Shown here: in pieces, positions 23,801 to 53,689 of the stretch
Layout: each line of letters starts with the position of its first letter
Numbering within the stretch: the first letter of the stretch is position 1
Source of the DNA: Lumbricus terrestris
Taxonomy: Eukaryota; Annelida; Clitellata; Crassiclitellata; Lumbricidae
Length of the DNA stretch: 64,000 bases
NCBI GenBank assembly: GCA_949752735.1
Contig: OX457037.1
Location: 33,016,456-33,080,455 of the forward strand
Direction of reading: 5' to 3'
The notes under the pieces: generated by a model
Told to the model about the DNA's origin: nothing
Databases searched by the model: none
Seen by the model: the letters and a program-made list of their open reading frames with translations, nothing else
Position numbers and translations under genes: made by a program

Positions 23801-26800
23801 TTCGTACCTGAAACAAATTCGAGTCCAGTTTTAAACTGAGTTGATACGAAAAATGTTGAAGATTGGCGAGAGGTGTACATTTGCACAATAGTAGCATTGG
23901 TGATAGGCCAAGTCTGTGAGACAACGACTACGCAAATTGTTATGCTTGCCTGAGTTAGCAAAAGCATGTTATGGGTTTGGGTTATGTTTAGGTTAAATGT
24001 GATGTCTTACTAGAATGTTTTATTAATATAATGAGAACTCCAAATTTAAAGATTGCATGTCTTGTTGAATTGCACTATGGTCCTGAAAGGTCTGATTGTT
24101 CGAGAGCTTCAAAGTTGTCTCACAATATACCATTGCTAAATGAAGACTCTCAGTCAAACATACACTCACCACCACTAAAATGCTGGACCACATAATTCCA
24201 TCATCCAGACACACACGCACACACACACACAGAGTGAATACCGATAGTTACACCACACTTTATTTGCTTGGATAGCTCAGATAATTTACTTTGACTATTC
24301 GATTTCTGCTAGAGCATACTAGATATAAGATTAATTCCTACACTCGTAAGTACTACGCAACGTTTGAATATTTATCAAGCTTCCACCATCAGAACTAGGA
24401 TGGATTTGACTGAAAGAGACCAATTTCTATAAATTTACTCAAACGTGCTTGACATAAACAACACGCCTTGAACTTGGAAATAAAAAAAATTCATTTAGCA
24501 AAGTACAATTATTTTGGCCCATCATGTATTTGTAACCGGAACCCACTTACTTATACGCTCAAGAACCCAGCCCCGAATTCACATTCGTTTCCGGTTCCGG
24601 TTCCGTTATGCGATTCCGTTATGTTCAGGGTTGCCATGTACTTTCCGAAATTCCCGCCCAAAGGCTGGCAAAAACTGGCCCAAAACTAACCCAATGTAAT
24701 CTATGACCAGCATCAGATTAGATTTTACTATACAAACGATCATCATCATATTCGACTGCCGCTATAATATGCCACGGAACCGGCAGCAATGGTAGCGCAA
24801 TGGATAACACGCTGGCCTAGAGTGCGAGAGGCAGTGAGTCCGAGCCCATTTTGGGCGGATTTGCTTTGTAGGCTGCTATTAGCGCAGTGTAGGCCTAATT
24901 TCAAAGCGGTCTGTTCATTTAGTATATAAGTTTAATTAAGATTACTGCATAACTTGTAAATGAAAAGCGCAGTGCGTCTTGCAGGCGTTTAATAAAAGAA
25001 TAGATTGTTATTATTATTATTAGCATCAGATTCGATTTTTACTATACAGGCGCTAATGATCATCATCATATTCGACTGACGCTATGCAGGCCTACATACC
25101 ACTGAACGTGCATCATCAGATTCGGATCCGGATTGACTATACAGGCAGCAGTTCATCTATACCAATAGAGGATTATAAATAATTTTTAAACTAATTAAAT
25201 TCATTATTACAAGTGCTGTACGCTAAATAATTTAAACAGTCTAATCTTTTTCGTTTTCCAAACCACTTCAATCTTGTAAGTGTGAAGAAAATATTGGCAA
25301 TGCACACTATCTTCTCTATTATAACAGTTTTTCACATTAGTCTATACATAAAAATTAGCCATTGCCTGAATCTGTGCATCAGAAATGTTACAAACAATAT
25401 AACAGCATTATATCATTATGATCAGTTTCCTGTTATTTTATTTCTTCCACTTAAAAATCTGTTTTGGTTGCAGTTTGTATTTGTGAGCGCAATCTCAATC
25501 TCGAGATTTCTTTAGCGCCAACAGAAGCTATACGTCGCGGAAGCCAGAGGTCTCAGTCAAAAGTAATTTAGCTATTAACGAAATCGATAGGAAAAAGATG
25601 GCAAAAATGACATTATAAAGTAATCGTGTTGTTGTGAATTATGTATTCTACGTGTAGGAAGTTATGCATAATTATAATTAATTTTATCCACCTAGTTTAT
25701 AGGTACAATATTATAATTGATTTAGGTTCGCTCAACTGTTAAACATTAACTCCTTGTCAACGCATTAATTTTTTACAATACTATAACCAACTTGTCTAAA
25801 ACTCCAAGTTGATGATCAAACATGAAGAATGCAGAAGCGGGTGACATCTAAATTTACAGTCTACCCTACAAATGAGCCGCTAAGGTGGATAGGCCTACTA
25901 ATTTTACACATTCATATGCCGGAAGTCAAAATGAAAACACAATTAAGCGACTATATATAGGCCTATTACTTTCAACTGTTTTGGTTTGGCAACAGAACCC
26001 TACAGTCGTTTTGTTTCCTGTAGTCCGTAACGTGCATCAGCAGATTCGGATTTACTATACAGGCGCATATCATCATCATATTCTACTGGCGCCATATAAA
26101 TACCACTGAACGTGCATCAGCAGATTCGGATTTACTATGCAGGCGCATATCATCATCATCATATTCGACTGGCGTCATATAAATACCACTGAACGTGCAT
26201 CGGCAGATTCGGATTTACTATACAGGCGCATATCATCATCATCATCATATTCGCCTGGTGCTCTCTATATACCACTGAACGTGCATCAGCAGATTCGGGT
26301 TGACTATACATGGAGGCGCATATCATCATCATCATATTCGACTGGCGCTATATAAATACCACTGAACGTGCATCAGCAGATTCTGATTTACTATGCAGGC
26401 GCATATCATCATCATCATATTCTACTGGCGCTGTATAAATACCACTGAACGTGCATCAGCAGATTCGGATCTACAATAAAGGCGCATATCATCATCATCA
26501 TATTCGACTGGCGCTGTATAAATACCACTGAGTCATCAGATTCGTATTTACTATACAGGCGCATATCATCATATTCGCCTGGTGCTCTCTATATACCACT
26601 GAACGTGCATCAGCAGATTCGGATCTACAATAAAGGCGCATATCATCATCATCATATTCGACTGGCGCTGTATAAATACCACTGAACTTGCATCAGCAGA
26701 TTCGTATTTACTATACAGGCGCATATCATCATCATCATCATATTCGCCTGGTGCTCTCTATATACCACTGAACCTGCATCAGCAGATTCGGATCTACTAT

Positions 26801-29800
26801 ACAGGCGCATATCATCATCATCATATTCGCCAGATGCTCTCTATATAGGCCTACCAGGGAACGTGCATCAGCAGATTCGGATTTACTATGCAGGCGCATA
26901 TCATCATCATCATATTCGACTGGCGCTGTATAAATACCACTGAACGTGCATCAGCAGATTCGTATTTACTATACAGGCGCATATCATCATCATCATATTC
27001 GACTGGCGCTGTATAAATACCACTGAGTCATCAGATTCGGATTTACTATACAGGCGCATATCATCATCATCATCATCATCATCATCATATTCGCCAGGTG
27101 CTCTCTATATACCAGGGAACGTGCATCAGCAGATTCGTATTTACTATACAGGCGCATATCATCATCATCATATTCGACTGGCGCTGTATAAATACCACTG
27201 AGTCATCAGATTCGGATTTACTATACAGGCGCATATCATCATCATCATCATCATATTCGCCTGGTGCTCTCTATATACCACTGAACTTGCATCAGCAGAT
27301 TCGGAACTACTATATATAGAGGCGCATATCATCATCATCATATTCGACTGGCGCTGTATAAATACCACTGAGTCATCAGATTCGTATTTACTATACAGGC
27401 GCATATCATCATCATCATATTCGACTGGCGCTGTATAAATACCACTGAGTCATCAGATTCGGATTTACTATACAGGCGCATATCATCATATTCGCCTGGT
27501 GCTCTCTATATACCACTGAACGTGCATCAGCAGATTCGGATCTACAATAAAGGCGCATATCATCATCATCATCATATTCGACTGGCGCTGTATAAATACC
27601 ACTGAACTTGCATCAGCAGATTCGGATTTACTATACAGGCGCATATCATCATCATCATATTCGCCTGGTGCTCTCTATATACCACTGAACCTGCATCAGC
27701 AGATTCGGATCTACAATAAAGGCGCATATCATCATCATCATATTCGACTGGCGCTGTATAAATACCACTGAACTTGCATCAGCAGATTCGGATTTACTAT
27801 ACAGGCGCATATCATCATCATCATATTCGACTGGCGCTGTATAAATACCACTGAACTTGCATCAGCAGATTCGGATTTACTATACAGGCGCATATCATCA
27901 TCATCATATTCGACTGGCGCTGTATAAATACCACTGAACTTGCATCAGCAGATTCGGATTTACTATACAGGCGCATATCATCATCATCATATTCTACTGG
28001 CGCTGTATAAATACCACTGAACTTGCATCAGCAGATTCGGATCTACTATACAGGCGCATATCATCATCATCATCATATTCGCCTGGTGCTCTCTATATAC
28101 CACTGAACCTGCATCAGCAGATTCGGATCTACTATACAGGCGCTTATCATCATCATCATATTCGACTGGCGCTGTATAAATACCACTGAACTTGCATCAG
28201 CAGATTCGGATCTACTATACAGGCGCTTATCATCATCATATTCGACTGGCGCTGTATAAATACCACTGAACTTGCATCAGCATATTCGGATCTACTATAC
28301 AGGCGCTTATCATCATCATCATATTCGACTGGCGCTGTATAAATACCACTGAGTCATCAGATTCGTATTTACTATACAGGCGCATATCATCATATTCGCC
28401 TGGTGCTCTCTATATACCACTGAACCTGCATCAGCAGATTCGGATCTACAATAAAGGCGCATATCATCATCATCATATTCGACTGGCGCTGTATAAATAC
28501 CACTGAACTTGCATCAGCAGATTCGGATTTACTATACAGGCGCATATCATCATCATCATATTCGACTGGCGCTGTATAAATACCACTGAACTTGCATCAG
28601 CAGATTCGGATTTACTATACAGGCGCATATCATCATCATCATCATATTCGCCTGGTGCTCTCTATATACCACTGAACCTGCATCAGCAGATTCGGATCTA
28701 CTATACAGGCGCATATCATCATCATCATATTCGACTGGCGCTGTATAAATACCACTGAACTTGCATCAGCAGATTCGGATTGACTATACAGGCGCATATC
28801 ATCATCATCATATTCGACTGGCGCTGTATAAATACCACTTAACGTGCATCGGCAGATTCGTATTTACTATACAGGCGCATATCATCATCATCATATTCGA
28901 CTGGCGCTGTATAAATACCACTGAACTTGCATCAGCAGATTCGGATTTACTATGCAGGCGCATATCATCATCATCATATTCGACTGGCGCTGTATAAATA
29001 CCACTGAACTTGCATCAGCAGATTCGGATTTACTATACAGGCGCATATCATCATCATCATATTCGCCTGGTGCTCTCTATATACCACTGAACCTGCATCA
29101 GCAGATTCGGATCTACAATAAAGGCGCATATCATCATCATCATATCCGACTGGCGCTGTATAAATACCACTGAACGTGCATCAGCAGATTCGGATCTACA
29201 ATAAAGGCGCATATCATCATCATCATATTCGACTGGCGCTGTATAAATACCACTGAGTCATCAGATTCGTATTTACTATACAGGCGCATATCATCATATT
29301 CGCCTGGTGCTCTCTATATACCACTGAACGTGCATCAGCAGATTCGGATCTACAATAAAGGCGCATATCATCATCATCATATTCGACTGGCGCTGTATAA
29401 ATACCACTGAACGTGCATCAGCAGATTCGGATTTACTATACAGGCGCATATCATCATCATCATATTCGACTGGCGCTGTATAAATACCACTGAACTTGCA
29501 TCAGCAGATTCGGATTTACTATACAGGCGCATATCATCATCATCATATTCGACTGGCGCTGTATAAATACCACTGAACTTGCATCAGCAGATTCGGATTT
29601 ACTATACAGGCGCATATCATCATCATCATATTCGCCTGGTGCTCTCTATATACCACTGAACCTGCATCAGCAGATTCGTATCTACAATAAAGGCGCATAT
29701 CATCATCATCATATTCGACTGGCGCTGTATAAATACCACTTAACGTGCATCGGCAGATTCGTATTTACTATACAGGCGCATATCATCATCATCATATTCG

Positions 29801-32800
29801 ACTGGCGCTGTATAAATACCACTGAACTTGCATCAGCAGATTCGGATTTACTATACAGGCGCATATCATCATATTCGACTGGCGCTGTATAAATACCACT
29901 GAACTTGCATCAGCAGATTCGGATTTACTATACAGGCGCATATCATCATCATCATATTCGCCTGGTGCTCTCTATATACCACTGAACCTGCATCAGCAGA
30001 TTCGGATCTACAATAAAGGCGCATATCATCATCATCATATTCGACTGGCGCTGTATAAATACCACTGAACGTGCATCAGCAGATTCGGATTTACTATACA
30101 GGCGCATATCATCATATTCGACTGGCGCTGTATAAATACCACTGAACTTGCATCAGCAGATTCGGATTTACTATACAGGCGCATATCATCATCATCATAT
30201 TCGCCTGGTGCTCTCTATATACCACTGAACCTGCATCAGCAGATTCGGATCTACAATAAAGGCGCATATCATCATCATCATATTCGACTGGCGCTGTATA
30301 AATACCACTGAACGTGCATCAGCAGATTCGGATCTACAATAAAGGCGCATATCATCATCATCATATTCGACTGGCGCTGTATAAATACCACTGAACTTGC
30401 ATCAGCAGATTCGGATTTACTATACAGGCGCATATCATCATCATCATATTCGCCTGGTGCTCTCTATATACCACTGAACCTGCATCAGCAGATTCGGATC
30501 TACAATAAAGGCGCATATCATCATCATCATATTCGACTGGCGCTGTATAAATACCACTGAACGTGCATCAGCAGATTCGGATCTACAATAAAGGCGCATA
30601 TCATCATCATCATATTCGACTGGCGCTGTATAAATACCACTGAACGTGCATCAGCAGATTCGGATTTACTATACAGGCGCATATCATCATATTCGCCTGG
30701 TGCTCTCTATATACCACTGAACGTGCATCAGCAGATTCGGATCTACAATAAAGGCGCATATCATCATCATCATATTCGACTGGCGCTGTAAAAATACCAC
30801 TGAACTTGCATCAGCAGATTCGGATTTACTATACAGGCGCATATCATCATCATCATCATATTCGCCTGGTGCTCTCTATATACCACTGAACCTGCATCAG
30901 CAGATTCGGATCTACTATACAGGCGCATATCATCATCATCATATTCGACTGGCGCTGTATAAATACCACTGAACTTGCATCAGCAGATTCGGATTGACTA
31001 TACAGGCGCATATCATCATCATCATATTCGACTGGCGCTGTATAAATACCACTTAACGTGCATCGGCAGATTCGTATTTACTATACAGGCGCATATCATC
31101 ATCATCATATTCGACTGGCGCTGTATAAATACCACTGAACTTGCATCAGCAGATTCGTATTTACTATACAGGCGCATATCATCATCATCATATTCGACTG
31201 GCGCTGTATAAATACCACTGAACTTGCATCAGCAGATTCGGATTTACTATACAGGCGCATATCATCATCATCATATTCGCCTGGTGCTCTCTATATACCA
31301 CTGAACCTGCATCAGCAGATTCGGATCTACAATAAAGGCGCATATCATCATCATCATATCCGACTGGCGCTGTATAAATACCACTGAACGTGCATCAGCA
31401 GATTCGGATCTACAATAAAGGCGCATATCATCATCATCATATTCGACTGGCGCTGTATAAATACCACTGAGTCATCAGATTCGTATTTACTATACAGGCG
31501 CATATCATCATATTCGCCTGGTGCTCTCTATATACCACTGAACGTGCATCAGCAGATTCGGATCTACAATAAAGGCGCATATCATCATCATCATATTCGA
31601 CTGGCGCTGTATAAATACCACTGAACGTGCATCAGCAGATTCGGATTTACTATACAGGCGCATATCATCATCATCATATTCGACTGGCGCTGTATAAATA
31701 CCACTGAACTTGCATCAGCAGATTCGGATTTACTATACAGGCGCATATCATCATCATCATATTCGACTGGCGCTGTATAAATACCACTGAACTTGCATCA
31801 GCAGATTCGGATTTACTATACAGGCGCATATCATCATCATCATATTCGCCTGGTGCTCTCTATATACCACTGAACCTGCATCAGCAGATTCGTATCTACA
31901 ATAAAGGCGCATATCATCATCATCATGTATTATTATTATTATTAAATACTTTAAAACATTTATCCGCAATGACATTATTTCAAAGAATTCTTCTTCGTTT
32001 CCTTCTAATACAGAAAATCAAAGTCAAGGAATGAAACAGTAGCTGTCGTATATGTCCTATATACTACTTCCTTCCATTCTGTTCAGAACACTTTTTCACC
32101 AATTAACGAAATGGAAGCAACGTCGACTGCAGCGTCTGCTGTTGTGTACTGCGACCAACCCAACCGTTTGTCCGTCCATGAAGCATTAGCTATTCTTGGT
32201 GAACCAAACACTTCAAAGATAAGCCGTCATGCCATAACTTCACCGCAGCCGGGTAACATCTTCGTTTTCAACAAAGACCATAAACTCCTTTTCTGTAAAG
32301 ACGGCTTGCAATGGACTCATTGTGGTAGGCACAGCATTCCTAAGCACAAACCGGTGTGTCAAAAGACTTACTATAGGCATAAATTGATGTCTAAGTTGTC
32401 GTCTTTCCGGAAAGAAGTCTATACTGCATTAGCGAGTGGAAACAACTTCATACTAGTGCATTACCTTGATAAGAAATGTCAATCGCAAGCTGATGACAAT
32501 CAAAAAGAGGTAAAGACTTCTCATTATATTCCTTATTTAGGCCTACTCAAGTGTGTTTTCAATTGACCACCTTTCCCATAATTCAAAATGAAACGCTCAC
32601 AATTAGTCTCGTCCATGTGGCAATACCGGTGTTTATCTCTTACTAAAAAAATTCCATTAACCATACTGCCTTCGATGATAACTTATGAACGCGACGCAGC
32701 TCTGATACAGAATTTCAGTTCAACAATAATGAAGAACGAAGCTCAGAAACAATTTATAATAGAAGTTGTGGAAAACATTTAGAAGTTAGACACATCAGGC

Positions 32801-35800
32801 GCAAATTATGCCAATATGGGAAAAAATTTGTGTCACTTGAGGGACCCCGTAAATATTTTTGAAGTGTCATGAAACTTTTCAGGTGTTATACCGGGACCAA
32901 AAGGAAACTTTCACGGGGGACTGCATAGAAGAATTCGACAAAGTATTTTTGGGACACTCTAATACATACATACATATATCTACATACATAGGTACGTACG
33001 TAAGTACGTACCTATGTACATACATACCTACATACATACATACATACACGCATACATGCATACATGCATACATACATACATACATACATACATACATACA
33101 TACATACATACATACATACATACATACATACATACATACATACATACATACATGCATACATACATACATACATACATACATACATACATACATACATACA
33201 TACGTACACACTTAGGTACATAACAAAATAAAATAAATACATATATGCATGCATAAGGCCTACAGCCGTACACACATACATACATTCATGCAAGCATGCA
33301 TTTTGCAAGTAGGTTACATTTTGAAATCTAGTGCAATTGTAATCATTATTTTCTTATTCATTACTTTCAGGCAATTGAATCAGAGACGGTTGCACAACTA
33401 ACCCATCACTGTGTAGAAACACAAAGCGACGTAATCACCAACACGAGGAGAGCTGAAATCAATGAAACGCATCACTGTGTAGAAAGAGAAAGAGACGTAA
33501 TCACCAACACGAGGAGAGCTGAAATCAATGAAACGCATCACTGTGTAGAAACAGAAAGCGATGTAATCACCATCACCAACACGAGGAGAGATGAAATCAA
33601 TGAAACGCATCACTGTGTAGAAACAGAAAACGACGTAGGCCTAATCACCAACACGAGGAGAGCTGAAATCAATGAAACGCATGAAACTCATTTCTCCTTT
33701 CATTTGCCATGGCCGGTTTTCTTCACCATTCGTCCTTCAAGTGACAAACAAACTGAGAGGCTTGCACCAACGTGGTGCAAGATTTTTTACGACAACTTCC
33801 ACAAACATTGGCCACAGTGTTCCTTGTCATTTACAGGCCATCACGTACGCAAGCCAAAATCGAGGAAACAGAACTCTGCATTCATCAGAGCTTATGCACG
33901 GTGCAAAGTGAGTGGTTGCGTCAAGGTTACATTCACAATCGACGCCGAACCACTACCACAACAAGACGTTCTTGTTCGTGTTGCAGTGGACAAGACATGC
34001 ACACATGAACTCAACATGGACGAGCAAACAGAGTCGGTATTGCACAAGAGACATCTTACAGGTAGGAGCATCATGTACCTTTTGGCTCCATTTGGTTTAC
34101 TCCATAGCTTGTATGAAACGTTTCTTCGTTTAGTAATTATCTTCGAAAAACGTACTTTCTTCTCTTTATTTCTCGCATCTTTTTTTTGGTCTTTCCTTCT
34201 GATTAGAATTTAATTGCGTTATTAACTCATGAACTTACATGCTGTTGTGTTTGCACTTTACAATTTAGGCCTACATTAAAGAAATTGAAGACGTTCCATT
34301 TTTCCATTAATTTCCTATCAAATGACAGTTATATGAAAATATTTTATAATCATTACTGTGTATGATTATTGTTACTTATACCAATTAATTTTGTCCTGGG
34401 CCTAAAAATGAAATTGTGTTATTTGCATATTAATATCCAATTGCATAAGCATGCTAGATTTATGAGCTTCAACGTAACTTTCAAGTGTAAAAATGCAAAT
34501 TATTTGACATTTCCGGTTTCTAGAGTTTTTGGTGTTCTTTAATTTAAAAAACCCCACGTTTCCCCCGTTTTTTCCTTTCATCTTCTATGTTTCTTTGCAT
34601 GTATGGTTTACTCTTCCTTTATAGCCTATACAGTTGCCATCCATAAAAATGCCTTTTTTCAAAATCTTTGCTAAAATACACACATGAATTGTTTTTAACT
34701 GTAATAGTCAATGACATGCACGAATATACACGCGGACATAGACCCTTATAATTCTCAACTGACGGCATGTTGTGGTATTTTGCTTATTTCAGAGTTGTAA
34801 TGCTTCTAATAATGGTAAATATATGAATTGAATTTAAGGTCAGGAAAGACAGTCCATTGCACGAGCAATTGTAACCGGTGTTGCTGCACCAACCAACGTA
34901 TATCTGGAATGCCTTGCGTCCATGAACGAGCCAGAAATAACTGCTGGCAACATTACTGCTTGCCAGACACCGGACGTGCTACGACGAGCAGCCTATCAGG
35001 AAAGGATGTCCAGCCGCCTTTCCGATGATCCCATCCACGAGCTGCAATTGGCGAAGAGGTCTCTGGACGCTGCAATGGGTACACAACTTCTTGGCTACAT
35101 TCAAGACATAGGACTTGCGCCATTTTCCGTATCTTTTTATATGGAAGACCAGGCAAGTCTATTTCTTCAGAAGTGTGTGCGCGGAAAGAAGGCTGTTTTG
35201 CACCTAGATGCGACGGGATCGGTAATTTCGGGATTGAAACATCAAGGACCGGCCTATTATTATTCACTTCTTGTGGCCGACTCCAACATACCGGTCTTGG
35301 ATTTCGTCTTAACTAGCCACAGCGCTACAGATATATCATACGAGTTAAAGAAATTCATCTCGAAATGTCGATCCCTGAAAGTCGGTGCAATTCTGCAACC
35401 TTCTCTGATTGTTATAGACTTCTCTTTCGCCATGCTGTACGCCGTCCTACAGTCTTTCAACAGTATGTCACTAATTGGCTATCTGCACTGCACCTTTGAG
35501 GTGTTAAACGGCTTGGCCACAGAAGTAGAAATTGAGTCGATCACTTTCGTGGCCCTGTGCTGTGCACATATGATAAAGGCAATTTCTAGGCGACTGGTCC
35601 GTTGCGAGAAAAGAAAACCAGTACGCCAGAGTGCCATGGTCATGTTTGCTCGCCTTCAGAGGTGCAGTGGATTGCGGGAAGCTGTGGCTGTATATAGAAA
35701 TATATACAGCCTTTTGAATTCCAAGTCTACGGATGCTTCATTGCTCACTGCAAGGATGGAAGTCCTACCACCATGTGGCAGTGTCATTTACGAAGACATG

Positions 35801-38800
35801 AACCAAATTGACTCCAATTCCTTAGAAGCATCAGACAACGACTTGAATCATACAGATAGCCCTGAGGAATCAGAGAGGTGCTATTCAACCGGTACGTTAA
35901 CTCTTTCTGAAAGTTACAGCATGCACTCCTTAAATATGATGAAACTGGTCGGCCTAATTAATGTTTGCCTTAATCATCAGAATAACGCTTAAAGTAAAAA
36001 GATTGAAGGGGCGTCATAGGAATGCGAGAAATGAGTAACATATGAAATATAAATAGATATATAGGCCCTAGGCCTATATATGTACATATTTTCAGGCTTC
36101 GCAATTGTCGGATGCTATTTGATTTGAGATTGCGTTAAGAAATTGGACAAAAGTAGATAGAAGAACAACTATGCCTAAATGAAGAAAGAAACTGTATAGG
36201 CAATCTATTTCTTGCTATGCACTTTAAAAACGTACCTGAAGTTAGGCCTAATCGACATGTGTAAAATTAGGCCTCTTATAATTTACAAAGCCGCCCTCGC
36301 TACCACTGTATAAAACATAAGCATGAGAGAATGTATGCAAAAGGAAAAAATTTTCATGTAGGCCTACAGCAATTTAAAAACTGGCGCTTTTGTCGACGAT
36401 ATGGCAACACTGAATCTATAAACGTTATGATTAGGTTCCCTTTATTCAACACAATGTAGCCTACCGTTAAACTTACTGACAATATTTACATATTTCCACC
36501 GTTGTAACGTAGGTACCAACTTACACGGTGGCACGGACAATAATCAAGAAAGAACGTCTTCAGAGAAATCTGGAAGAGCATGCAGCGTCATAGACACTCG
36601 TCATACTATTACGAAGCAGACGCCATACGCAGGTAAGCTATGACATTTTTGTAGCATCCAAGTTGACCAAATGCGCAAGTGCACACGACATAATTATGAA
36701 TAAACTGGTGCTCCGTGGTTGGCTTTCGAGTACCGCTTTAGAAATTTCTAGTTTGTGATTAGGCTACGATTAGGCTAGATATCGATAACGCTTACACGTG
36801 TAACGCTCATTTAAAACGTGGCCTGAAAAGAGCCTCAGTTGTAACTTGTAGCACAGTATGCAGTAACGATCTATCTAATTCACAGAAAGGTTGACTTCGG
36901 ATTGCAGGGACATAATATAGTAGGCCTATGTTGCAAAAAGTAATGTTTACGGGCATATATAATTTTATATGTGTAGTAAAGTACTGCTTAAATGAAGATT
37001 GCTTCACTTATTTAGGCTATAGGGCCTATGTATTTTCATGGATGGTAGGACTATGTGGACTTGTTACAGCGCTTACCAATTGCGAGTGAAGGACTTGCCC
37101 AAGGTTCCTAATCAGCGACTTGACGTGCATTCGAACATGCGACCCTTCGGCTGCAAGGCGATGAACATACCCACTACACAACCGCGCCCCACACATTTGT
37201 CTATATATCGGCATATTACATATGTTTATATAACTTATTAGGTATATATGATATATAGATACTCTTTAGGCCATATGTATTTGTACACATAATAAGTTTA
37301 TGTTCCATTCGTAGGCTAATGGAAGAATCACACTTATTAGGTATATATGATATATAGATACTCTTTAGGCCATATATATTTGTACACATAATAAGTTATG
37401 TTCCATCCGTAGGCTAATGGAAGAATCACAAAGAGTTTTAATATTTTGCTACTTGTTCAGATTACTTCAGAAGGAACCTTCAGAACACGACACTCTTCGA
37501 CGAAGGTAACTCATCTCCGAATGAGTTATATTCACCTGCTGCTTTTAAATGCATAGACAGTCTCATGTACTTGTTTCCGTTATGGTCATCGCCATTGCAT
37601 GCTAATCAAAATCGATTTGCATGGTCTCAAAACAACGACTTCGTACCAAAGTGTGCCAGCAACGCCATTGTGGAGTCACACTTCGGCGTTGTAAAAGGTC
37701 ACACTTTGAAGTATAAACGAGTACGTCCGCTGGAATTCATATTAAAGCATCTGACTCTGAACAGAGGGAAATTGAAAGAACGACTGTTGCCTGGTGGTAG
37801 CAACAGTGTTAGGAAAAGAAGACCGGCAGCAACTGATCCAGAGGAGCGTTGGGGGCGGCGTAAGAAAAGAGCTTCTGGAATATATGGTAACTTTTCGACT
37901 GCTAGAAAGATACTCTTCGTGAAAACGCCAATGGGAAAGACACTGGCAACACATATAGAAGAAACTGCAAGGCCCCACATCGACTCTTCAAATGCCGACG
38001 AAAACCTACCAGATCTCCCTAACGAAGATTGTTCGTACACTACGGAGCAATTTGATGCAACAGTGGAACCTTCCAGTCCTCCGCCACTACCATTAGGCGA
38101 AATATGTGATAAGGAATTGGCCATTGCAATGGAGAAATTGAATAACCAATTTTCCAAGACAACATCAGGACTTGAACACCCTGGCTTAGGCCCTAGTATT
38201 TTAATGGGGTCTGTGCCTCGTTTCAGGAAATGTGGTGTCTTACGTTTTGTTCAAGTTTTACACTTTGGCGACCACTGGATATGCGCTACAAATGTCTTTG
38301 GTAAAACGCACAGGGATGTCTACATTTACGATAGCATCTTCACATCTTTGGACAACGAAACAGTGCTGCAGGTAGGCATAACTTCTCGACATGTCTAGAA
38401 CTGGCTTGGCCAAACATAGTAAGTCTTAGAAAACAATATCGGTCTACTATTATAACAGTAGGCCTATTTATATTATTGGTGAAGCAATAAGTCACTTTTC
38501 ATGTTTAAAGGCTATAGCAACGCTTCTGTAACAAGCTTCATTATCATCTGCAAAGATTAAGAAATTTGTGGCTTAACTGGTGCTCCATCACTGAATGAAG
38601 TATTATTCAGTGATGCAGGGGTCCATTTCATAAGTGGTTGAAGTGGCTTGGGTGAACAGTGGGAACGCTGAATGTGAGCAGTGAGAACGATGATAAAGAA
38701 TGGCATTGAAATGCATGTGTTTTAGCATTCCATCATGATGAGCAGTGGGAACGCAAGTCAAGATTTTGGAGAGCACTGGGAACGCCATTCCCACGCGTTA

Positions 38801-41800
38801 CCACCCACTTTAAACCCTGCATTTAATACATTTACTAGCGTTTTCTGTTACTAATTACACTATACATACGGTGCGGATTGATATATTTCAGGTATCATTC
38901 ATATTGCGGGATGCAAGCAGCCATGTAGAGACAGACGACATCGACTTCTACGTTCGAAAATTCAACTCTCAACCGGCAGGAACACGACTGTGTGGATTTT
39001 ACGCTTTCGCTGCGGCTGTTTCTTGTTGCTTGCGTAAGGATCCAACAGGATGCATCTATGATGCAAGGCAACTGGTGACGAGCTTCCAAACCTTCCTGTC
39101 AAGCGACGAGGAAGTCCACGAACCTTTCCCATGCGTTTCTAATAATGAAGGAATTGGAACCGTGCTGCACCTTACAAGATCTAAGCTGTACTGTATCTGC
39201 CATGAGCCGTACATGGGTGAGCGAATGGTACAGTGTACATTCTGCGAGAACTGGTTCCACGTAAAATGTATTAAAGTATCAAGGTCACCACTGGAAGACG
39301 CAAGGAAGGAATGGAGAGGGCCATGCTGTAGCACAGTAAGTCTGATACAGCTATGATGTCAAGAAGGTATAAGTATATTAATCATATGCAGGAAAGCTTT
39401 TGTAAATGTTTGACATGTGCTGAGTTTATGAGGGGATAGGGGGATAAGCCCCCCCCCCCAGATAAGACCTCAAAAACAATTTGGTCACAATACAGTCAAT
39501 ATTGAAGCGAATACTGTCAATATATAATCGAATGCAAAATGATATATTTGAAATGAGATTTCAGGAAGGAAATTAGGGCGGCGCAGGTTGTAAGCCAGTT
39601 TCTGTAGCCAAACGAAAAAACTGAGAACAAACTATACGCCCATATATGTTGGCTTTTGTGGGCGCTAAGAAATTCACATTTGCACGTCCCGGTGTACTGT
39701 AAGGTATTAGAATAGCCTCTGCATAATCGACTTCGTAACAGGACGAGGCCTATACATAGCACATTTATATGAAGTAGGCCTAGGCCAAATTCCCGTGTAA
39801 CGATCCTTCAAGTAGGCTAAGATTTGTTCTTCTGCGTCCCAAATGAATAGGCTAAATTATCAATGGCGTTATTCGTGGTTTGAGGAATAGGTACGTGACA
39901 GTTGCTATTTCAATTGCAGCCTGCCGACGACGATCCAGTCCAAAATGTGTCAAACAACGATAGTCCCACTTTTGACAGTTTCAAGCGAAAGTCCCGAAGT
40001 GGTCTAGAGCGAACACATAGCGTCAGCGAGGCAGCGGCAGGTAGCGGTCTTCAAGTTGCAGAGAAACCAATGGAAATGAATGACGTTGTTGTGATTGAGG
40101 AAAAGTCTACTCCATTGGATAGGTTAGTAAAGATGGAGTCTGGGGTCCATCTTGCCCCTTTTGCATAAATTCGACTACTTCATTGAAATTCAATCGATTC
40201 ATTATAGGAATATATACTATTAAGAATTAATAAAAATGGTACTACCAATAATTAATACTCTGCAAACCAATTTACACTGTTTACACGGTTTACACCTTTC
40301 GCCATTGATTATGTTATTACTCTTTTATATGCCCAATTAGTGTTAGGCCTATGTAAAATATCAATATAGGCCTAGTTGTATTATTGATCATTACGTCTAT
40401 TACAATGTAAGTAATAATTTCATACTAATCAGAATGTCTAATAATCGTGTATTTTATTATACGTTGCCATTTGTAATTAACAGGGTTGGTAAGAGGAATG
40501 CAATGGAGGAGGACCTGACCGCCTTCATACTGAATTCGTCAATAATTAAAGTACGTTTTACACTACCCATACGCAGGCCCGGCCCTAGGCATAGGCAAAG
40601 TAGGCAGTTGCCTAGGGGGGGGGGGGTGTGCGCCGCGTGCCCAAAATATATGTAGCGCCAGTCTACTATGAAAGTATGCTAAAACTGCACATTTCCAGAG
40701 CCGATATGCAACTCCATATTGCACTTAGATGCAGAATATGTGGTCTTTTGACAAAATCAACATAACAATTTTCGGTTGCAATGTATATAGGGTCATGTGG
40801 GTAGCACAATGTTTCGCACACCAATACAAAGGACTTCAAGAGTAGCCTACTTTCAGCAGATACCAAATACCAATATCATTTTGCTCACGTCATGGAAGGA
40901 ATAACATCAAAGTAGTTTCATAACTAGACACACTGCCAAATTCCAATTGTAAAACAGGTGTATTACATTTTGGAAGTTTCCTACGAAATGCATGCTGGCA
41001 CCCCACAATTTCTATTAGTTGATTGAAAGCATTAAAGGTAGACCTTCGTTGTGTATTGTTATTCAGGAGCATGTGAGAACTGTTGTACTTAGCAAAGAAA
41101 CTTCACAAGAAACGTATATTTCACAAAAACGAAACATGACAAGTCGTCAGAGGAAAGATTTAAACTGGGAAACAACTGGACCAATACATTCGGACTCAAG
41201 GGTGAGAAATTTTTCAGGAAATTCTAAAGACATAAGTTTTGCGTGTACATAAACAAATGAAGTGCATTACAGGTGCAGACTATTCTGTCCTGTATTTCTT
41301 CTTATTCTGGTTCTCTGCCCCTAGGCGGGTACGATTGTGAAACCACTCCTACCTCCGCTTGACCTTCCTTATAGCTTTGCTATCAAATTTTCTGCATCAC
41401 TACCTCTCGCACTCTTGGCCAGCGTGTTAACAACTACTCTACCGGGGGCCGCCACCCCCTATGAATGTTATGACAGCATGACATTCAGTGGCGATGCACG
41501 GATTTCAGTGTTGGTTTGGGGCTGAATTTGCGGTCGAAGATTTTCTGACGACCTTTCTTTTAGTAATCTGCCAAAATCCGACGAAAAATTTTCGTTTCAT
41601 GCGCAGAAATTTCTCACGACTTTTTGGTTTTGTTTTGGAAAATGGTCCTTTTTCATGTCCGCCAAACTGTCTGGCAAAGACGAATATTTTTTGGGGCTAA
41701 CGGTGTTTAACGGTGCAAATATTTTACTTATAAATGGGGAAAAAATGAATGGCCTTTTTAGGGGGTCTATGCCAATAATAGATCCGATGTCTATGGGCTA

Positions 41801-44800
41801 CTACTGACAGTGACATCTGTCGACTGAACACGCCAACAACTGAAGAATTGTGCTATTTATAGTCCTTGTTTCTGGTGTTAATATTTATCTTTACATGGGA
41901 AACAATGGATCGCCTTTCTTAGGGGTGTCTTAGCCCCCATTGCGCCGCTACTGATGACATTTGTTATTTTCTTTATATTTTAGTGTTGGCGGTTGTTTAA
42001 CATGTTGAAGAGGATTGTGTTGGAAGTCACAGACACTGATTCAGCCGAGTATGAATCACTATATTCTCTGAGAAAGCATGTTGACGGACCATACGTTGTT
42101 GATGTACTGATGTTTGAGGTAAGTACTGCAGCATAATTTTAAAAATACGTCATATCGTATTGGAACATAAAAGCTGTGTGGTAAAGTGCTCTATTAAATG
42201 CGATAATGATAATGAACTTCTGTTTGCACGCTCGCAATAAATCGCCCTCTACCGTGGTTGCCGGAATGGATCGTATCGTAATCGTAAACTGGAATTTTAT
42301 AAAGCGCCACTCGAAAGCCAAGCTTATTCAAGAGCGCTGCGTTGAGTTAGAAGGGTTGTCCGTGAGAGTGGTCCGTGTCGATTTACCATAGTATCAGAGG
42401 GGCGGAAAAGCTACTAGGGGGAGGGGGTGTCGGCTGGGTGGAGAATTGGAGGGTGGAGGATCAGATGAGAGAGGGTAAGATTTCTTAAAAAGGAGTATCT
42501 TAAACCCTTCTTAAAACCTGGCTGCAAAAGATGTCTGTCGCTGCCACTGTCTATCTATACATATAGGCTACATACATCCATGTATATAGCTATAATTTAT
42601 ATCTGCATTACCATATTGTTTTGTCTACCTCTTTCTGTACATGTATATCCGTCAAACGGTCTATGTCGTTTTCAAGGAATAGGGTTATACGTCAATTTAT
42701 AAATTATGGCAAAGATATTTTTATTTGCAACATGTTGTGTGAATATTTGCAGGCAATTGTGCGTGCAATAGAAATACGCCAAGGGGTGGACAGGAAGCAA
42801 GCTGAAAGAATATTCAGAGAAGAGATGTAGCATTCTGACCAAGCATACAAAAACCTTCAGCAAGAGCATTTGGAAAAGCAGCGGTACACCAGTGAACTCG
42901 GAGCGGACGAAGTAGAAGCTGCTATAAACCAAAATTAACACATGAACGGTACAGGTTTACACTGCTGTTAGCTATTCCGTGGTGGATACACTGAAATCCG
43001 AATATGCTGCTGGCGATTCGCTGGTGAATAGACTGCAAACCGAATATACTGTTGGCGATTACATGGTTGAAAGACTGCAAACCGAATATCTTGTTGCCGA
43101 TTTCTTTGTGTATAGACCGTTAAAGGAAGCTGCTGTTGGTGATTCCGTCGTGTATATAGTTCCACCAGAATATGTTGTTGGCGATTTATTTGTGTATAGA
43201 CTGTAAGAAGAATCTGCTTTCGGTCATTCCGTGGTGGATATGGTGACTTCAAACCGAATATGCTGTTGGTGATTTCTTTGGGTATAGACTGTCAAAAGAA
43301 TATACTGTTGTTGATTACGTGGTGGATAGATTGGCAAACGGATATGGTGAATGCAAACCGAATGTGCTGTTGGTGATTTCTTTGTGTATAGACTGTCAAA
43401 AGAATCTGCTGTTGTTGATTACGTGGTGGATAGATTGGCAAACGGATATGGAAAGACTGCAAACCGAATATGCTGTTGGTGATTTCTTAGTGTATAGACT
43501 GTCAAAAGAATCTGCTGTTGGTGATTACGTGGTGGATAGATTGGCAAACGGATATGGAAAGACTGCAAACCGAATATGCTGTTGGTGATTTCTTAGTGTA
43601 TAGACTGTCAAAAGAATCTGCTGTTGGTGATTACGTGGTGGATAGATTGGCAAACGGATATGGTGACTGCAAACCGAATATGCTGTTGGTGATTTCTTTG
43701 TGTATAGAATGTCAAAAGAATCTGCTGTTGGTGATTACGTGGTGGATAGATTGGCAAACGGATATGGAAAGACTGCAAACCGAATATGCTGTTGGTGATT
43801 TCTTTGTGTATAGACTGTCAAAAGAATCTGCTGTTGGTGATTACATGGTGGATAGATTGGCAAACCGAATATGCTGTTGGCCATTCTGTCGTGTTTATAG
43901 TTCGACCAGAATATGTTGCTGGCGATTTATTTGTGTATAGACTGTAAGAAGAATCTGCTTTCGGTCATTCCGTGGTGGATATGGTGACTTCAAACCGAAT
44001 ATGCTGTTGGTGATTTCTTTGTGTATAGACTGTCAAAAGAATCTGCTGTTGGCAATTTCTTTGTGTATATACTGTCAAAAGAAGCTGCTTTCGATGATTC
44101 CTTGGTGGATAGATTGCAAACAAAATAAGTTGTTGGCGATTACGTGGTGGAAAGACTGCAAAACGAATATGCTGTTGGTGATTTCTTTGTGTATAGAGTG
44201 TCAAAACAATCTCCTGTTGTTGATTACGTGGTGGATAGATTGGCAAACGGATATGGAAAGACTGCAAAGAGAAAATGCTGTTGGTGATTTCTTTGTGTAC
44301 AGACTGTCAGAAGAATATGCTGTTGGTGATAACGTGCTGGATAGATTGGCAAACGACTATATGATGACTGCAAACCGAATATGCTGTTGGTGATTTCTTT
44401 GTGTATAGACTGTCAAAAGAATCTGCTGTTGGCAATTTCTTTGTGTATATACTGTCAAAAGAAGCTGCTTTCGATGATTCCTTGGTGGATAGATTGCAAA
44501 CAGAATAAGTTGTTGGCGATTACGTGGTGGAAAGACTGCAAAACGAATATGCTGTTGGTGATTTCTTTGTGTATAGAGTGTCGAAACAATCTGCTGTTGT
44601 TGATTACGTGGTGGATAGATTGGCAAACGGATATGGTGACTGCAAACAGAAAATGCTGTTGGTGATTTCTTTGTGTATAGACTCAAAAGAATCTGCTGTT
44701 GGTGATTACGTGGTGGATAGATTGGCAAACGAATATATGATGACTGCAAACCGAATATGCTGTTGGTGATTTCTTTGTGTATAGACTCAAAAGAATATGC

Positions 44801-47800
44801 TGTTGGTGATTACGTGGTGGATAGATTGGCAAACGACTATATGATGACTGCAAACCGAATATGCTGTTGGCCATTCCGTCGTGTATATAGTTCCAGCAGA
44901 ATATGCTGTTGGCAATTTCTTTGTGTGTATACTGTGAAAAGAATATACTGTTGGCGATTACGTGGTGGAAAGACTGCAAACCGAATATGGTGTTGGTGAT
45001 TTATTTGTGTATAGACTGTCAAAAGAATCTACTGTTGGTGATTCCGTGGTGGATAGATTGCAAACCGACTAAGCTTTTGGCTATTACGTGGTGGATAGAT
45101 TGCAAACCGAATAAGCTGTTGGTGATTACGTGGTGGAAAGACTGCAAACCGAATATGCTGTTGGTGATTCCGTCGTGTATATAGTTTCAGCCAAACCTGG
45201 TGGTGGAAAGACTGCAAACCGAATATGCTGTTGGTGATTCCGTCGTGTATATAGTTTCAGCCGAATGTGGTGTTGGCCATTCCGTGTTGGATAGATTGCC
45301 AAACGAATCTGCTGTTTGCGATTCCGTCCGGTATATAGTTTCTGCCGAGTCTCCTAATCTGTTGTTTTGGCTGCAATTGGCCAAGAACGGGTTGCAAAAT
45401 GGTTCAAATAATTTTATTTTAAAAATCCTACTATTTTGTAAGACCGAAAACGGGATTCATTGTTTGTGACGCCCGGGATTAGGGATTGAAAATGTCCGGG
45501 ATTACAGGGATTATGGATGCCGGAATTACATTAAATAAGAGGCATTGATGGAAAAGATAATGGATAGGAGGGTCATTCAACGGGATAGGATGCATGATAC
45601 GTTGAGTGTTACATATATTCGGCAAAAGTGGAGATTATAATATAATTCGTCATTGCAGTAGTTGCAAAGAAAGGGTAAGAAGAGATAATAATTAACAGTA
45701 GGACATTAGAATTTGTATTAGGCCAAATATAGAACGGTGAATGTAAAGTAATATTGAAAAACACCAAAATGCAAGTCAAACAAGTGCTGTCTGTTACCTA
45801 AATACAAAAATGTAACAGAAATAACGAGGCTAAATATTTTTGTAAATTTAATAACTATAACATTAACTGTAATAGCAATTGAAAAAATAAGAGCTATAAA
45901 GACAATGTAACTACTAATACTAATAATAATAAGAAATAATAGTCATTTTCTGCTATTAGATTTGACGTTTCTGTTGTCCCAACGATTTTAAAAATCGAAT
46001 ACGCCAAAGTTTCGTTTCAATGCAGATGTTTCTTTGAATTTAATATTGATTAGATTATTGTTTTCACGGATATTCATGGCATATGCCTCAATTTTTATTT
46101 TATCTGTTGCATTTTCATGTCCAAAATGTCCACTCCGTTACTGTCCCTTTCACACTTTCATTGCAATATAACTAAAAATTTGCGACAACAAGTGATAGTT
46201 TTCCAAAAACTTAATGTTACTCATAATCGAAATTGGAAGGCCTTTCATTTAATAAGTTTGTCATTGACTGAATCAATAATTATAAAGGATAAATAAATTA
46301 TCATACCTGTCTTTATATGACGACTTTTCGAAGCTAAAACTCAATATGTTTTTAAAGGTGTTACCTGCGAATGATACGTTTAATAGGTGTCTACTCCGTT
46401 ACCGAGAATTAGTCCAGATTAAAGATGCTTATGTATGCATCAATTACAAGGTTTCATCTCCTTAATGAACAAAATTGATATGTAGAAAAAGGGTGTACCA
46501 AACGTGGCCAATAAAAAAATGTGTGCTGCATTATTTAGAAATTGTCCACTCTGTTACCTGTCCACTCCGTTACATTTAATGCATATTTATACACTCGGAA
46601 ATGGTAACGGAGTGAACTTTTAGAGGTAATGGAGTGGACATTTATTCGAATTACGGTAGAAAATAGAAATATATTCACATAATTATATGTTCTTATTCTT
46701 TTGTTGGTTAAGATGGAACTACTCTCCTTCATGTATTTGTGAATTTTCAAAACTGTGCCTTGTGTAAAACATGACCATTGAGCTTTATGAACTGTATTGT
46801 TGAGCAAAATTGGCAGTAACGGAGTGGACGATTCTTTTGGCATATAAGAAATTTAAAGGAATGCCGTATTGCAAGTTACTAAGTAGTTTACTAAAACAAT
46901 ATTAGCTAAATGGAACATTGAAGCTCAGATTAAAATGCATTTATTTGATAATGATTTAGTTTTTCAATAAAATTTATAATGAAATTTATGAAGAACCAAA
47001 TTTGGTAACGGAGTGGAAATTCGTGGGTGTCTTGAAATTAGTGAATGTTTTGCAAATATCTTAAAAGATATTTTCAAACTCTTTTGTGCATTGTGATGGA
47101 ATTATATTTTCATTCAAGTACCGGTATATTCAAAGCCATACGTGTTTGAAACATTTACACTAAGTTTTGTGAACTTGTATTGTTGAGCAAAATTGACCGT
47201 AACGGAGTGGACAACTTTTGTGGCATTAAAAAAAATCCTCAAAGTGTCTTACCGAGTTGATAATACAAGTTTACCGAAAGTGATACAATGGAGTTAGGAT
47301 TAACACGCAGTTATTTGATATTGCTTCAGTTTTTCAATAAAATTTATGGATAAGAGAGTTGGGTAACGGAGTTGACATTGCTGCTTTGGTGGTGTCCAAA
47401 GTTTTGCGAAAAACATATTAAACCAAAATATTAGTGCGCAACAGCACCCATATTTCTTAAGGACAGATATTGCTAATTAAAATAAGATGAAAAAAATATT
47501 GGTTTGAAAGAAAAAAATTCATCCAAGTACAAAAGTCAATTTAATCTGATAGCAGAAAATGACTCATTAATGATAGTATTAATAATTGTTATTATAATGA
47601 TAATAATAGCACGAATGCTGCCCATTCATGAGTGTACACTTTGAGTTGATTTCATAGAAATTTTGATAAGAATAATTTAGGACGCGATTTAATAAAATTG
47701 CGTTTTCCTACGTTTTTTGTGTTGTGCTTTATGCTAGAAGCAATGGTTGGTCTCATTAAAAGTGTAATTATATAGCATTTGCACCTGTATAGTTAAAAAA

Positions 47801-48182
47801 ACAAATCTGATGATGGTATGTAGCCTATATAGCGCCAGTCGAATATGATGATGATGATTTGCGCCTGTATAGTAAATCCGAATCTGATGATGCACGTTCC
47901 GTGGTATATAGAGATCACCCGGCGAATATGATGATGGTGAAATACGCTTGTACAGTGCCTAAAGTGTGGAAAAATAAGTGCCTGGACGCCTTTTACCTCT
48001 CCAAAAGAAGTAGGCCTACCTAGACGCCTTTAATTACCTTTCAAGTCTATGCTCGCCAATAAGTGGCTGGACGGCGTTCAGATTTTAAAACAAGTGCATG
48101 GACGCCGTCCATGACCGTCCAGGCACACTTTAAGCCCTGCGCTTGTATAGTAAAATCGAATCTGATGAAGCGCGTTACTTGG

Positions 48183-48231
<49 letters not shown>

Positions 48232-48511: not shown

Positions 48512-48790
48512 TGCGATGCAAAGTATTCGATGCTACTACTTCATAAGAAGTTTGTGAAAATAAAACTAAAAAACCCTTTTAATCATACACACCTAGGCGA
48601 GGGTTCATTAGGTCACGGGGAGTCGAATGACAGTCAACCGTAGTCCACGTCACGCCCACCTCCACAGACGACAGATTGGCAATGCTTCCAACCTATACGA
48701 TTATTTTGAACGGCCCTCTGGCGATTGACACGGTTGGTAGAAGTAAAGACAAAATCTTCGTGACATCAAGCTGTCGCATACGGACTGCAG

Positions 48791-48940
48791 CCATAGGCGC
48801 AACCACCCTATGGGACCCACGGGACGCGTCCCCCCCAACTTTTGAGTAGTCCCATTGACTTTATCATTATGGTCCCCCCCAACTTTTGGGACGTGATTCA
48901 TTTGGTCCCCCCCAACTTTTAGGGCGTGATTGCGCCTATG
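48791..48940. mobile_element. 150-bp MITE upstream of GALM
   Basis: The termini CCATAGGCGCAA and TTGCGCCTATG are inverted repeats, and the element is flanked by the direct repeat ACTGCAG (48784-48790 and 48941-48947). The interior has three copies of a GTCCCCCCCAACTTTT phrase or its variants. It lies about 280 bases upstream of the GALM start codon, so it could affect the promoter region. Confidence 0.7.
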
Positions 48941-48947
48941 ACTGCAG

Positions 48948-49485
48948 CTTCCAAAAGAACCAGAATTTCACTTCAATGCGGTTTCCAAGAAGTCGAGACA
49001 GTGACCTTGTGATCGAGATTGGACAGTGAGCACGGGTGCCAGCAACGAAGTTCATCAAGCATAAAGCTATGAACGCGATTACATTGGAAGGCGGGCAATC
49101 ACTTGATCGCACTGTAATAGGCCTACTAAATGCAATTATGAGATCTGGGAACTAGATAGCCTATTATTAACTTTTATTAATTATTATTATTATTAAACTG
49201 TGATTTATCACACGACTAAACAGAGAGAATCTTGTACGAAAGCGCGTAATTAACAGGAATGTCTACTCATAATAAATCTAGAGATAGGCCTACATTCCGA
49301 CCTTATATAGGCCTAGGTCTACTTAGGGTTTAGGCCTACAATAAATTGCGCCTATATATAATTTCAGTGGTTGTCTGATCTGCATGCACTTCGATCGTAG
49401 TCCCACGTGTGTGTAGTCTAGCTAGCCTTCCTACAGATTGCGAATTCATAATTAAGCCATCATCTCTTGACTCGTTGGTTGATTA
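48948..49485. other. Upstream flank of GALM, no feature
   Basis: Non-coding, with several TAGGCCTA-type palindromes near 49,120-49,330. No promoter element can be assigned with confidence. Confidence 0.4.
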
Positions 49486-49487
49486 GA

Positions 49488-49700
49488 TTATTGACTGACT
49501 GACTGACTGGCTGACTGACTGACTGACTGGCTGACTGGCTGGCTGACTGACTGGCTGACTGACTGACTGACTGACTGACTGGCTGGCTGGCTGACTGACT
49601 GACTGACTGACTGGCTGACTGACTGACTGACTGACTGACTGACTGACTGACTGACTGACTGGCTGACTGATTGGTCGACCGACCGATTGATTGATTTATT
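49488..49700. repeat. (GACT/GGCT)n microsatellite
   Basis: Long tetranucleotide run of GACT with interspersed GGCT units. Confidence 0.98.
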
Positions 49701-49709
49701 GATTGATTG

Positions 49710-49830
49710 CAGTCAGTGTTTTACAGGCTCCTTAAAACTTTTCTGTTTCATCATGGTTGGACTGGGAGCTCCTCTGAGTGGATTGTAAGGGGCGCTATAT
49801 AAATCATTGAAATGAATGAATGAATCATCA
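49710..49830 (+). mobile_element. L2-like 3' tail with (AATG)n
   Basis: An L-K-x-F-L-F-like phrase is followed by GGGGCGCTATATAAATCATT and (GAATGAAT)n, the organisation of L2-type LINE or SINE 3' ends. It is related to the tail at 21,520-21,640. Confidence 0.55.
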
Positions 49831-49947
49831 GCCCACATGCATTGGACCCGCGTTGGATGAACGGTAGAAATTGTTTTTCGTTCCTTCTGCGGAGACACTG
49901 CAGTTAGGTGCAGATCGATGGGTCCTACGAACGTACGTGACCGTATA

Positions 49948-50126
49948 GGCAGGGCTTAAAGTGTACCTGGACGATCATGGACGGCGTCCATGCACTTGTT
50001 TTAAAATCTGAACGCCGTCCAGCCACTTATTGGCGAGCAGGCTGGAAAGGTAAGGGGCGTCCAGGCACTTCTTTTGGAGAGGTAAGGGGCGTCCAGGCAC
50101 TTCTTTTTTCCACACTTTAGGCACTG
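49948..50126 (+). repeat. Dispersed GGACGGCGTCCA repeat, copy 3
   Basis: It has the same orientation as copy 1 and is inverted relative to copy 2. It includes an internal duplication of GGTAAGGGGCGTCCAGGCAC. Confidence 0.85.
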
Positions 50127-50705
50127 CGTATAGCCTAACCTCTCGGCTCGCGACGATGAACTTGTTGTAACGTTACTGTTGTATGTTATAACTGTTGGCC
50201 TTCCGTAATCCAGACTCGAGGATTTCTATTGGGCCAACATTATCTCAGAAATGTTGCTACCCCCCCCCCTCGGACCCATTCCATTGCGAACGTTCTATCG
50301 TACCGCTGTTGACTATGCGCGTGAATTTTTTTATGATAGATATTAAAGAAATAAATATAATAAAAATGCTAATATGAGTGAAAAATAATTCTAAGAATTA
50401 CGAATTGATGCATGCAGCGATCCTTATATCAGATCCGCTATAATTCCAAATTATTCTGATGATGAAACTGTGAAGCATTTCTCGTATTTGGGAAAACAAA
50501 ACAAAGGATGTGTCTTATAGACATAATATACATGTATAATTATAGGCTACGTTGGCCAAAGTTCGGACGACTCCTCTGTTGATAATATATTAGGCCTACA
50601 ATAATTTAAATAGGCTGTCATACGTCTCGACTCTCTCGAGGGATCTACGGTACATTGAGGTCCCGGAGGCCATTGGCCTGGCAGAAGAAGAAGCGGAATA
50701 CATGC

Positions 50706-50887
50706 AACGCCTCATTCATTCATTCATTCATTCACTCATTCATTCATTCATTCATTCATTCACTCACTCACTCACTCACTCACTCACTCATCAACGAACT
50801 AACGAATATGACTGAGTGAATGAACAAATGAACGAACGGACGAACGAACGAAAATGATGAATGAATGAATGAATGAATGAACGAATC
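50706..50887. repeat. (CATT)n, (CACT)n and (GAAT)n microsatellites
   Basis: Tandem CATT units pass into CACT, then about 40 bases later into GAAC/GAAT units. Confidence 0.97.
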
Positions 50888-51940: not shown

Positions 51941-51944
51941 TGTT

Positions 51945-51945
51945 G

Positions 51946-51977
<32 letters not shown>
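51945..51977. repeat. (AT)n microsatellite
   Basis: About 15 AT units. Confidence 0.97.
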
Positions 51978-51978
<1 letters not shown>

Positions 51979-51994
51979 CTGAAGTCTGCAAAAG

Positions 51995-52380: not shown

Positions 52381-52544
52381 TTTCACTGCACAGTTTAAAG
52401 TGTTCTCGAATAACGATTTGCCTATAGCGCGATCGCCATAGAAGCTTAGCCTACAGTTTAAAAACTAGGAACCACGTCTTCAACAGAAACCGCATCAGCA
52501 TGCCCTGTATCATACACGTAGACATCCACTGCTCACTCTCTCGC

Positions 52545-52546
52545 TG

Positions 52547-52586
<40 letters not shown>

Positions 52587-53688: not shown

Positions 53689-53689
53689 T

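Follow-up and report, generated by a model that had tools for sequence, protein, structure and literature searches.

Rehavkus transposons belong to the Mutator group, have been reported from arthropods and annelids, and combine a PHD finger in the transposase with a 9-bp target site duplication, a minisatellite beside the terminal repeat and a single gene (PMC6446971). Further sources list Rehavkus as a separate superfamily (Repbase, 2006; PMC1634758), use it as the outgroup in a 2026 survey of arthropod Mutator-like elements (MULEs; PMC13359780), and present Rehavkus-1_TC of Tribolium castaneum as a 9.5-kb element whose inverted termini contain a 164-bp satellite (PMC10218199), Tm1 as a Mutator/foldback element with a Phantom-type transposase (PMC3169594) and Tetris of Drosophila virilis as a foldback transposon linked to satellite DNA (PMC4079207). 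Here we analyse a 64,000-nucleotide stretch of contig OX457037.1 of the annelid Lumbricus terrestris (the window). A preliminary description of this DNA had singled out a 12-exon gene at 32111..42830, with CG-1-like, MULE-like transposase, Ulp1-like peptidase and PHD modules, and had judged it to be under selection or recently active. Those gene coordinates are right, but the gene lies inside a larger element that had been missed, at 24555-48384 (23,830 bp), and the better interpretation is that it encodes the transposase of a 23.8-kb transposon with minisatellite arms in inverted orientation. Judging from the sequence of this one copy, we put at roughly 80% the probability that the element belongs to the Mutator group as an autonomous-looking cut-and-paste DNA transposon of Rehavkus or foldback type, in which case the gene product is most likely the cut-and-paste enzyme of the 23.8-kb DNA. 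That it is a transposon of some kind is hardly in doubt, and its membership of the Mutator group is probable, while the odds that it is Rehavkus proper are about even.

The ends, arms and outer repeat units of the element are as follows, in window coordinates.

24546..24554, unstranded: left 9-bp target site duplication, CTTACTTAT; the identical 9-mer stands at 48385-48393
24555..24620, plus strand: left terminal inverted repeat, starting ACGCTCAAGAACCCAGC; aligned with the right end in reverse complement, imperfect, inner limit approximate
24711..25181, plus strand: outer left repeat units; four cores, all forward; 25024-25181 by local alignment to the 83-bp unit
26029..31926, plus strand: left minisatellite arm; 83-bp unit repeated about 72 times (Tandem Repeats Finder)
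42950..45358, minus strand: right minisatellite arm; about 42 bp per unit, in the opposite orientation to the left arm; all 16 cores reversed
47777..48371, minus strand: outer right repeat units; five cores reversed, one forward
48320..48384, minus strand: right terminal inverted repeat, ACGCAAAGAAACCCAGC on the minus strand; by alignment, inner limit approximate
48385..48393, unstranded: right 9-bp target site duplication, CTTACTTAT; 9/9 identical to the left

Among 230 pairs of identical 9-mers (22000-26028 against 45400-51000), the CTTACTTAT pair had the highest score for adjoining inverted repeats, 14. This score was reached by 2 of 40,000 random pairs (18000-25990 against 48400-56000; maximum 16), which corresponds to a rough figure of 0.01 expected among 230. 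Inward of the ends, both arms are built on the common core CAKCAKATTCG. Spacings of 44 and 39 bp alternate between the ATTCG cores of the left array, so that each 83-bp unit consists of two half units. The full core occurs 133 times in the left array and 4 times in the outer left units, always forward; the right array has 16 copies, all reversed, the outer right units have 5 reversed and 1 forward, and the gene has none in either orientation. All 137 copies on the left side are thus forward and 21 of the 22 on the right side reversed, with none in the rest of the element or in the flanks at 16900-24554 and 48385-64000. When the right array was compared with the left by blastn, the minus strand gave 168 bits (56% identity over about 2.5 kb) and the plus strand no match, and 40 controls with permuted columns reached at most 26.8 bits.

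Three inserts interrupt the outer parts of the element. An insert resembling a tRNA-derived short interspersed element (about 24783-25023, delimited by eye) splits the outer left repeat units; ARAGORN found no tRNA gene in the window. The outer right units are split by an insert resembling a miniature inverted-repeat transposable element (about 47957-48137), a partial inverted relative of which lies outside the element at 17734-17887. A further insert of about 1.6 kb (45940-47580, by eye) has inverted ends of its own and contains GTAACGGAGTGGAC-like motifs in both orientations. Judged by eye, all three would be younger than the element.

The layout of the element closely matches that of Rehavkus: compared by layout rather than by transposase sequence, the two share the PHD finger, the 9-bp target duplication, the terminal-repeat minisatellite and the single gene. 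The Rehavkus trait of a minisatellite before the 3' terminal repeat is present here as the right array, with outer units reaching to 48371, and the imperfect, roughly 60 bp of alignable terminal repeat compare with 26-400 bp in Rehavkus. The remaining open frames of at least 100 codons within the element fall within the arrays, introns or the 1.6-kb insert, or are placed opposite or beside exons, and no second gene was recognised among them. In contrast to Rehavkus, the element in the window is 23.8 kb long, has minisatellite arms on both sides, and adds CG-1 and an Ulp1-like motif set. Rehavkus-1_TC likewise has satellite tandem arrays in inverted termini (PMC10218199); in the window the units are of about 42 or 83 bp, with 133 cores in the left array. 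The Tm1 paper describes composite inverted repeats with an internal repeated motif and mostly 9-bp duplications, as in the window, but a motif of about 14 bp and, for Tm1-A, a 496-residue transposase of Phantom type with FLYWCH and Pfam MULE domains, which set it apart (PMC3169594).

The gene model was re-derived by hand and by script. As claimed before, it has 12 exons whose introns are all GT-AG and which join to an unbroken frame on the plus strand (4,296 nt, 1,431 codons plus stop) with zero internal stops. When the 60-nt second exon is omitted the frame stays open, giving 11 exons and 1,411 residues; from its sequence we treat this exon as optional, since the frame is kept with or without it, and two residue numberings (1,431-codon and 1,411-residue) are therefore in use below. 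The exons, all on the plus strand, are as follows.

32111..32509, plus strand: exon 1; start codon, the entire CG-1 match (residues 23-120, about 32177-32470) and a splice donor
32883..32942, plus strand: optional 60-nt exon of the 12-exon model; AG/GT flanks, frame kept
33371..34061, plus strand: coding minisatellite, then a conserved C-C-C-H zinc-binding-like domain; from alignment columns
34839..35891, plus strand: transposase core with first D, second D and C-x-x-H; from the alignment with 12 relatives
36513..36632, plus strand: linker within the transposase core; GT-AG, frame kept
37461..38371, plus strand: catalytic E and first half of the Ulp1-like motif set; from alignment and pattern test
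38892..39335, plus strand: second half of the Ulp1-like motif set and PHD finger; from Pfam PHD, PDB match and pattern test
39920..42830, plus strand: last five exons; linker and PWWP3A/B C-terminal-like module, then stop; from Pfam PF20886 and splice sites
39920-40122, 40484-40550, 41067-41201, 41984-42118 and 42753-42830, plus strand: the last five exons individually; from splice sites

The coding minisatellite in the third of these exons (33400-33682) has a 72-bp period and 4.1 copies and keeps the frame.

Of the 8,000 candidates scored in a protein search with residues 370-1220, two were relatives, and a second search with the better of these as query found ten further relatives among 5,578; the named relatives are from insects, P0003 from Diatraea saccharalis and P0004 and P0005 from Prorops nasuta, and none was confirmed in the viral contigs scanned. 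Without exception the 12 relatives keep the DATGS motif, the D of DFS and the E in the VENWF region, and all three catalytic residues are present in the window protein, which bears out the proposed DDE transposase; for the E this invariance rests on the alignment, a simple E pattern looking wrong for P0005 and P0010. In the 1,411-residue numbering the DDE core comprises D487, D557, C604-x-x-H607 and E826. The first D, of LDATGS, is encoded at 35207-35209, the second D, of DFS, at 35417-35419 and the E, of SNAIVESHF, at 37673-37675. All seven residues that had been named in the 1,431-codon numbering (D507, D577, E846, H1046, D1065, Q1105 and C1112) were found at those positions. The C-x-x-H after the second D is shared with most relatives (D-x-x-H in P0002, a gap in P0005), and its position between the second D and the E is reportedly given by Hua-Van and Capy in 2008 as a Mutator-group trait. 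The series D, D, C-x-x-H, E is the signature of Mutator-like transposons and is present in the window protein; together with the 9-bp duplication it upholds the label 'MULE-like' in a broad sense, which the Pfam MULE profile does not.

Ahead of the DDE core stands a C-C-C-H set (C283, C311, C316 and H345 in the 1,411-residue numbering), conserved in 11/13, 13/13, 12/13 and 12/13 rows of the alignment, respectively, which we take to resemble the zinc-type DNA-binding domains of Mutator-group transposases. In a tree of the 13 rows the four Ulp1-bearing relatives (P0001, P0003, P0004 and P0005) cluster with support of 99/98; the window protein occupies a long branch and has no supported partner.

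An Ulp1-like peptidase is plausible for the window protein. The hallmark of Ulp1/C48 peptidases is a set of H, D, Q and C with the spacing of the family, and the window protein has such a set, encoded at 38273-38275 (H), 38330-38332 (D), 38970-38972 (Q) and 38991-38993 (C). Its spacing was reproduced in 5 of 200,000 shuffles of residues 871-1180, a number to be taken as a guide rather than a clean test, the pattern having been written after the protein was seen. The same pattern finds P0003, P0004 and P0005 and misses P0001, a Pfam Peptidase_C48 match. Altogether, Pfam places Peptidase_C48 in two of the 12 relatives (P0001 and P0003) and spacing alone points to it in P0004 and P0005; in all four the peptidase follows the DDE core. 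P0003, P0004 and P0005 therefore resemble the window protein in having a DDE core followed by an Ulp1-type peptidase (by Pfam in P0003, by spacing in all three), but they have no CG-1 and no PHD by Pfam, and they group with each other and P0001. The window protein itself gave no Pfam Peptidase_C48 match at E up to 1, its peptidase piece alone matched 0 Pfam families at E up to 10, and a profile of the four relatives aligned to the region with 4.5 bits and an hhalign probability of 0.3%. Given these negative homology results, the claim of an Ulp1-like peptidase stands on the catalytic spacing and on the place of the domain in the four relatives, and has no backing from profiles or searches. The odds that the putative peptidase is active are about even.

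The PHD finger proposed earlier is matched by Pfam PF00628 just above the cutoff (24.9 against 24 bits, E = 2e-5) at about 39192-39329. Against PDB, the peptidase-PHD exon retrieved PHD proteins, the best at 5.5e-8 over the PHD part, with 79 sequences at E up to 1. Two of the 12 relatives have a PHD finger (P0007 and, just under the cutoff, P0006); it precedes the DDE core in both and follows it in the window protein. The C-terminal piece matches Pfam PWP3A-B_C (PF20886) with 25.9 bits (E = 1e-5) and the whole protein with 21 bits, below the cutoff of 27; as the match spans the last four exons, it speaks for those junctions.

Since Ulp1 and PHD recur among the relatives, it is CG-1 that is the unusual part. 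Pfam CG-1 (PF03859, cutoff 23.5 bits) matches exon 1 plus the small exon with 32.1 bits (E = 1e-7) over profile positions 10-115 of 116, and the whole 1,411-residue protein with 24.8 bits, so the module named in the preliminary description is confirmed. The four Pfam profiles corresponding to its modules thus divide into CG-1 and PHD, which matched, and MULE and Peptidase_C48, which did not. An approximate CG-1 stretch of human CAMTA1 aligned with E = 4e-5. Against solved structures exon 1 returned eight sequences at E up to 1, the best of them at 0.05, and no name among them was that of a CG-1 protein; CG-1 matched none of the 12 relatives at E up to 10. CAMTA transcription factors carry TIG, ankyrin and IQ regions beside CG-1. 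CG-1 is common to them and the window protein, but the latter has no other CAMTA domain (scanned with Pfam at E up to 1, it showed no TIG, ankyrin or IQ region), and in the gene model its CG-1 is joined to a transposase.

No CG-1-bearing transposase was found in open-access full texts, judged largely by titles and the starts of abstracts. Papers combining the CG-1 domain with transpos- words concerned, by title and abstract start, CAMTA genes and cucumber fruit genes, and among the matches listed for CAMTA and CG-1 with transposons or transposases no title or abstract start described such a protein; CG-1 together with transposase and PHD, or with transposon, DNA-binding domain and Ulp1, gave no match in the open-access literature; and, among the matches listed for Ulp1 with PHD or Mutator-like transposases and for Rehavkus, no such protein was named in titles or abstract starts. 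'Cg-1' in the Tm1 paper was rejected as a CG-1 domain, being a nematode gene (PMC3169594).

In the window CG-1 is confined to one exon, and either the transposase or the CAMTA side could have been the donor. Domains of WRKY/GCM type are thought to have moved between transposases and transcription factors. It would be a long shot to conclude that the element represents an undescribed transposon lineage that recognises its own minisatellite arms by CG-1, and that CG-1 has moved between transposases and CAMTA factors. A role of CG-1 as binder of the arms, taken by itself, can be proposed only tentatively. CAMTA-type binding sites are CGTG or CGCG; such a site found no support as the conserved core of the arms: at the position in question in the left half unit the commonest base is present in 40-49% of 56 units, and the core common to both arms is CAKCAKATTCG.

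From these parts a mechanism may be proposed. The protein would bind the arms, most likely at CAKCAKATTCG, through the zinc-like domain (common to the relatives), CG-1 (only here) or both; the arms could then act as a long landing strip for the transposase, with the shared core as the most probable site of binding. Cleavage at the ACGC ends, and insertion of the element with a 9-bp stagger, would be the work of the DDE core. The PHD finger might steer the complex to marked histones, and the peptidase might free host or transposase proteins of SUMO or similar tags, allowing escape from silencing.

Several results weigh against an autonomous-looking Mutator-group transposon. The random pairs behind the chance estimate for the ends came from flanks partly different from those of the 9-mer scan and were drawn without the condition of a shared 9-mer; the runner-up 9-mer pair scores 12.5 compared with 14, though repeat units lie outside it; and the terminal repeats align over about 60 bp with mismatches and gaps. 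The Pfam MULE profile (PF10551) does not match the window protein at E up to 1 and gives an insignificant match (E = 2.6) in one of the 12 relatives, and a search with the peptidase-PHD region returned nothing at E up to 10 among 219 candidates. A DDE transposon of some other superfamily with the same layout, such as a P-type foldback element or an unnamed superfamily, would account for the missing MULE match, and foldback arms do occur with unrelated transposases according to the Tm1 paper (PMC3169594). We consider this unlikely, because the 9-bp duplication and the C-x-x-H between the second D and the E are traits of the Mutator group.

A host gene with accidental repeats was rejected because the arms are mutually inverted, their core is absent from the examined flanks, and one terminal-repeat pair and a 9-bp duplication bound the whole. 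Domestication would make the gene an old transposase recruited to act as chromatin or transcription factor, and would leave the arms as fossils; the 1,431-codon frame, open although inserts struck the non-coding parts, and the chromatin-type modules are what this would lead one to expect. It has no need, however, of intact catalytic residues, a 9/9 duplication, terminal repeats and both arms, all of which are present, and we regard it as very improbable. A shade less probable again is a chance neighbourhood in which the transposase exons and an unrelated CG-1 exon are never in one transcript. The failure of CG-1 to match any of the 12 relatives is in keeping with such a neighbourhood; yet the CG-1 exon is located within the element, possesses an ATG of its own 185 bp past the left array and has a phase-0 donor compatible with the next acceptor, and the large exon that follows lies in an open frame (33332-34213) with no ATG ahead of the conserved part, so that an upstream start is needed.

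Read as a Mutator-group transposon, the locus would place a long animal-type protein of many modules within a complete mobile element whose ends are defined, and its modules for DNA binding, chromatin reading and deconjugation could be tested as components of a single transposition system. Rehavkus-type elements would be extended in size and module content, and CAMTA factors might have received their CG-1 domain from such an element or donated it. Transposon ends made of more than 100 copies of a probable binding site would also offer a plausible route to satellite DNA.

Elsewhere in the window, about 15 kb at 1700-16900 is low-complexity tandem sequence with a GC skew near -0.85, open in many frames. 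Direct repeats at 56014-57462 and 62007-63454 are 99.93% identical and 5,993 bp apart; an 866-codon stop-to-stop frame, for which Pfam gave no significant match, starts in the copy at 56014-57462. A tandem array of a 14-bp unit, in about 53 copies, occupies 53836-54576.

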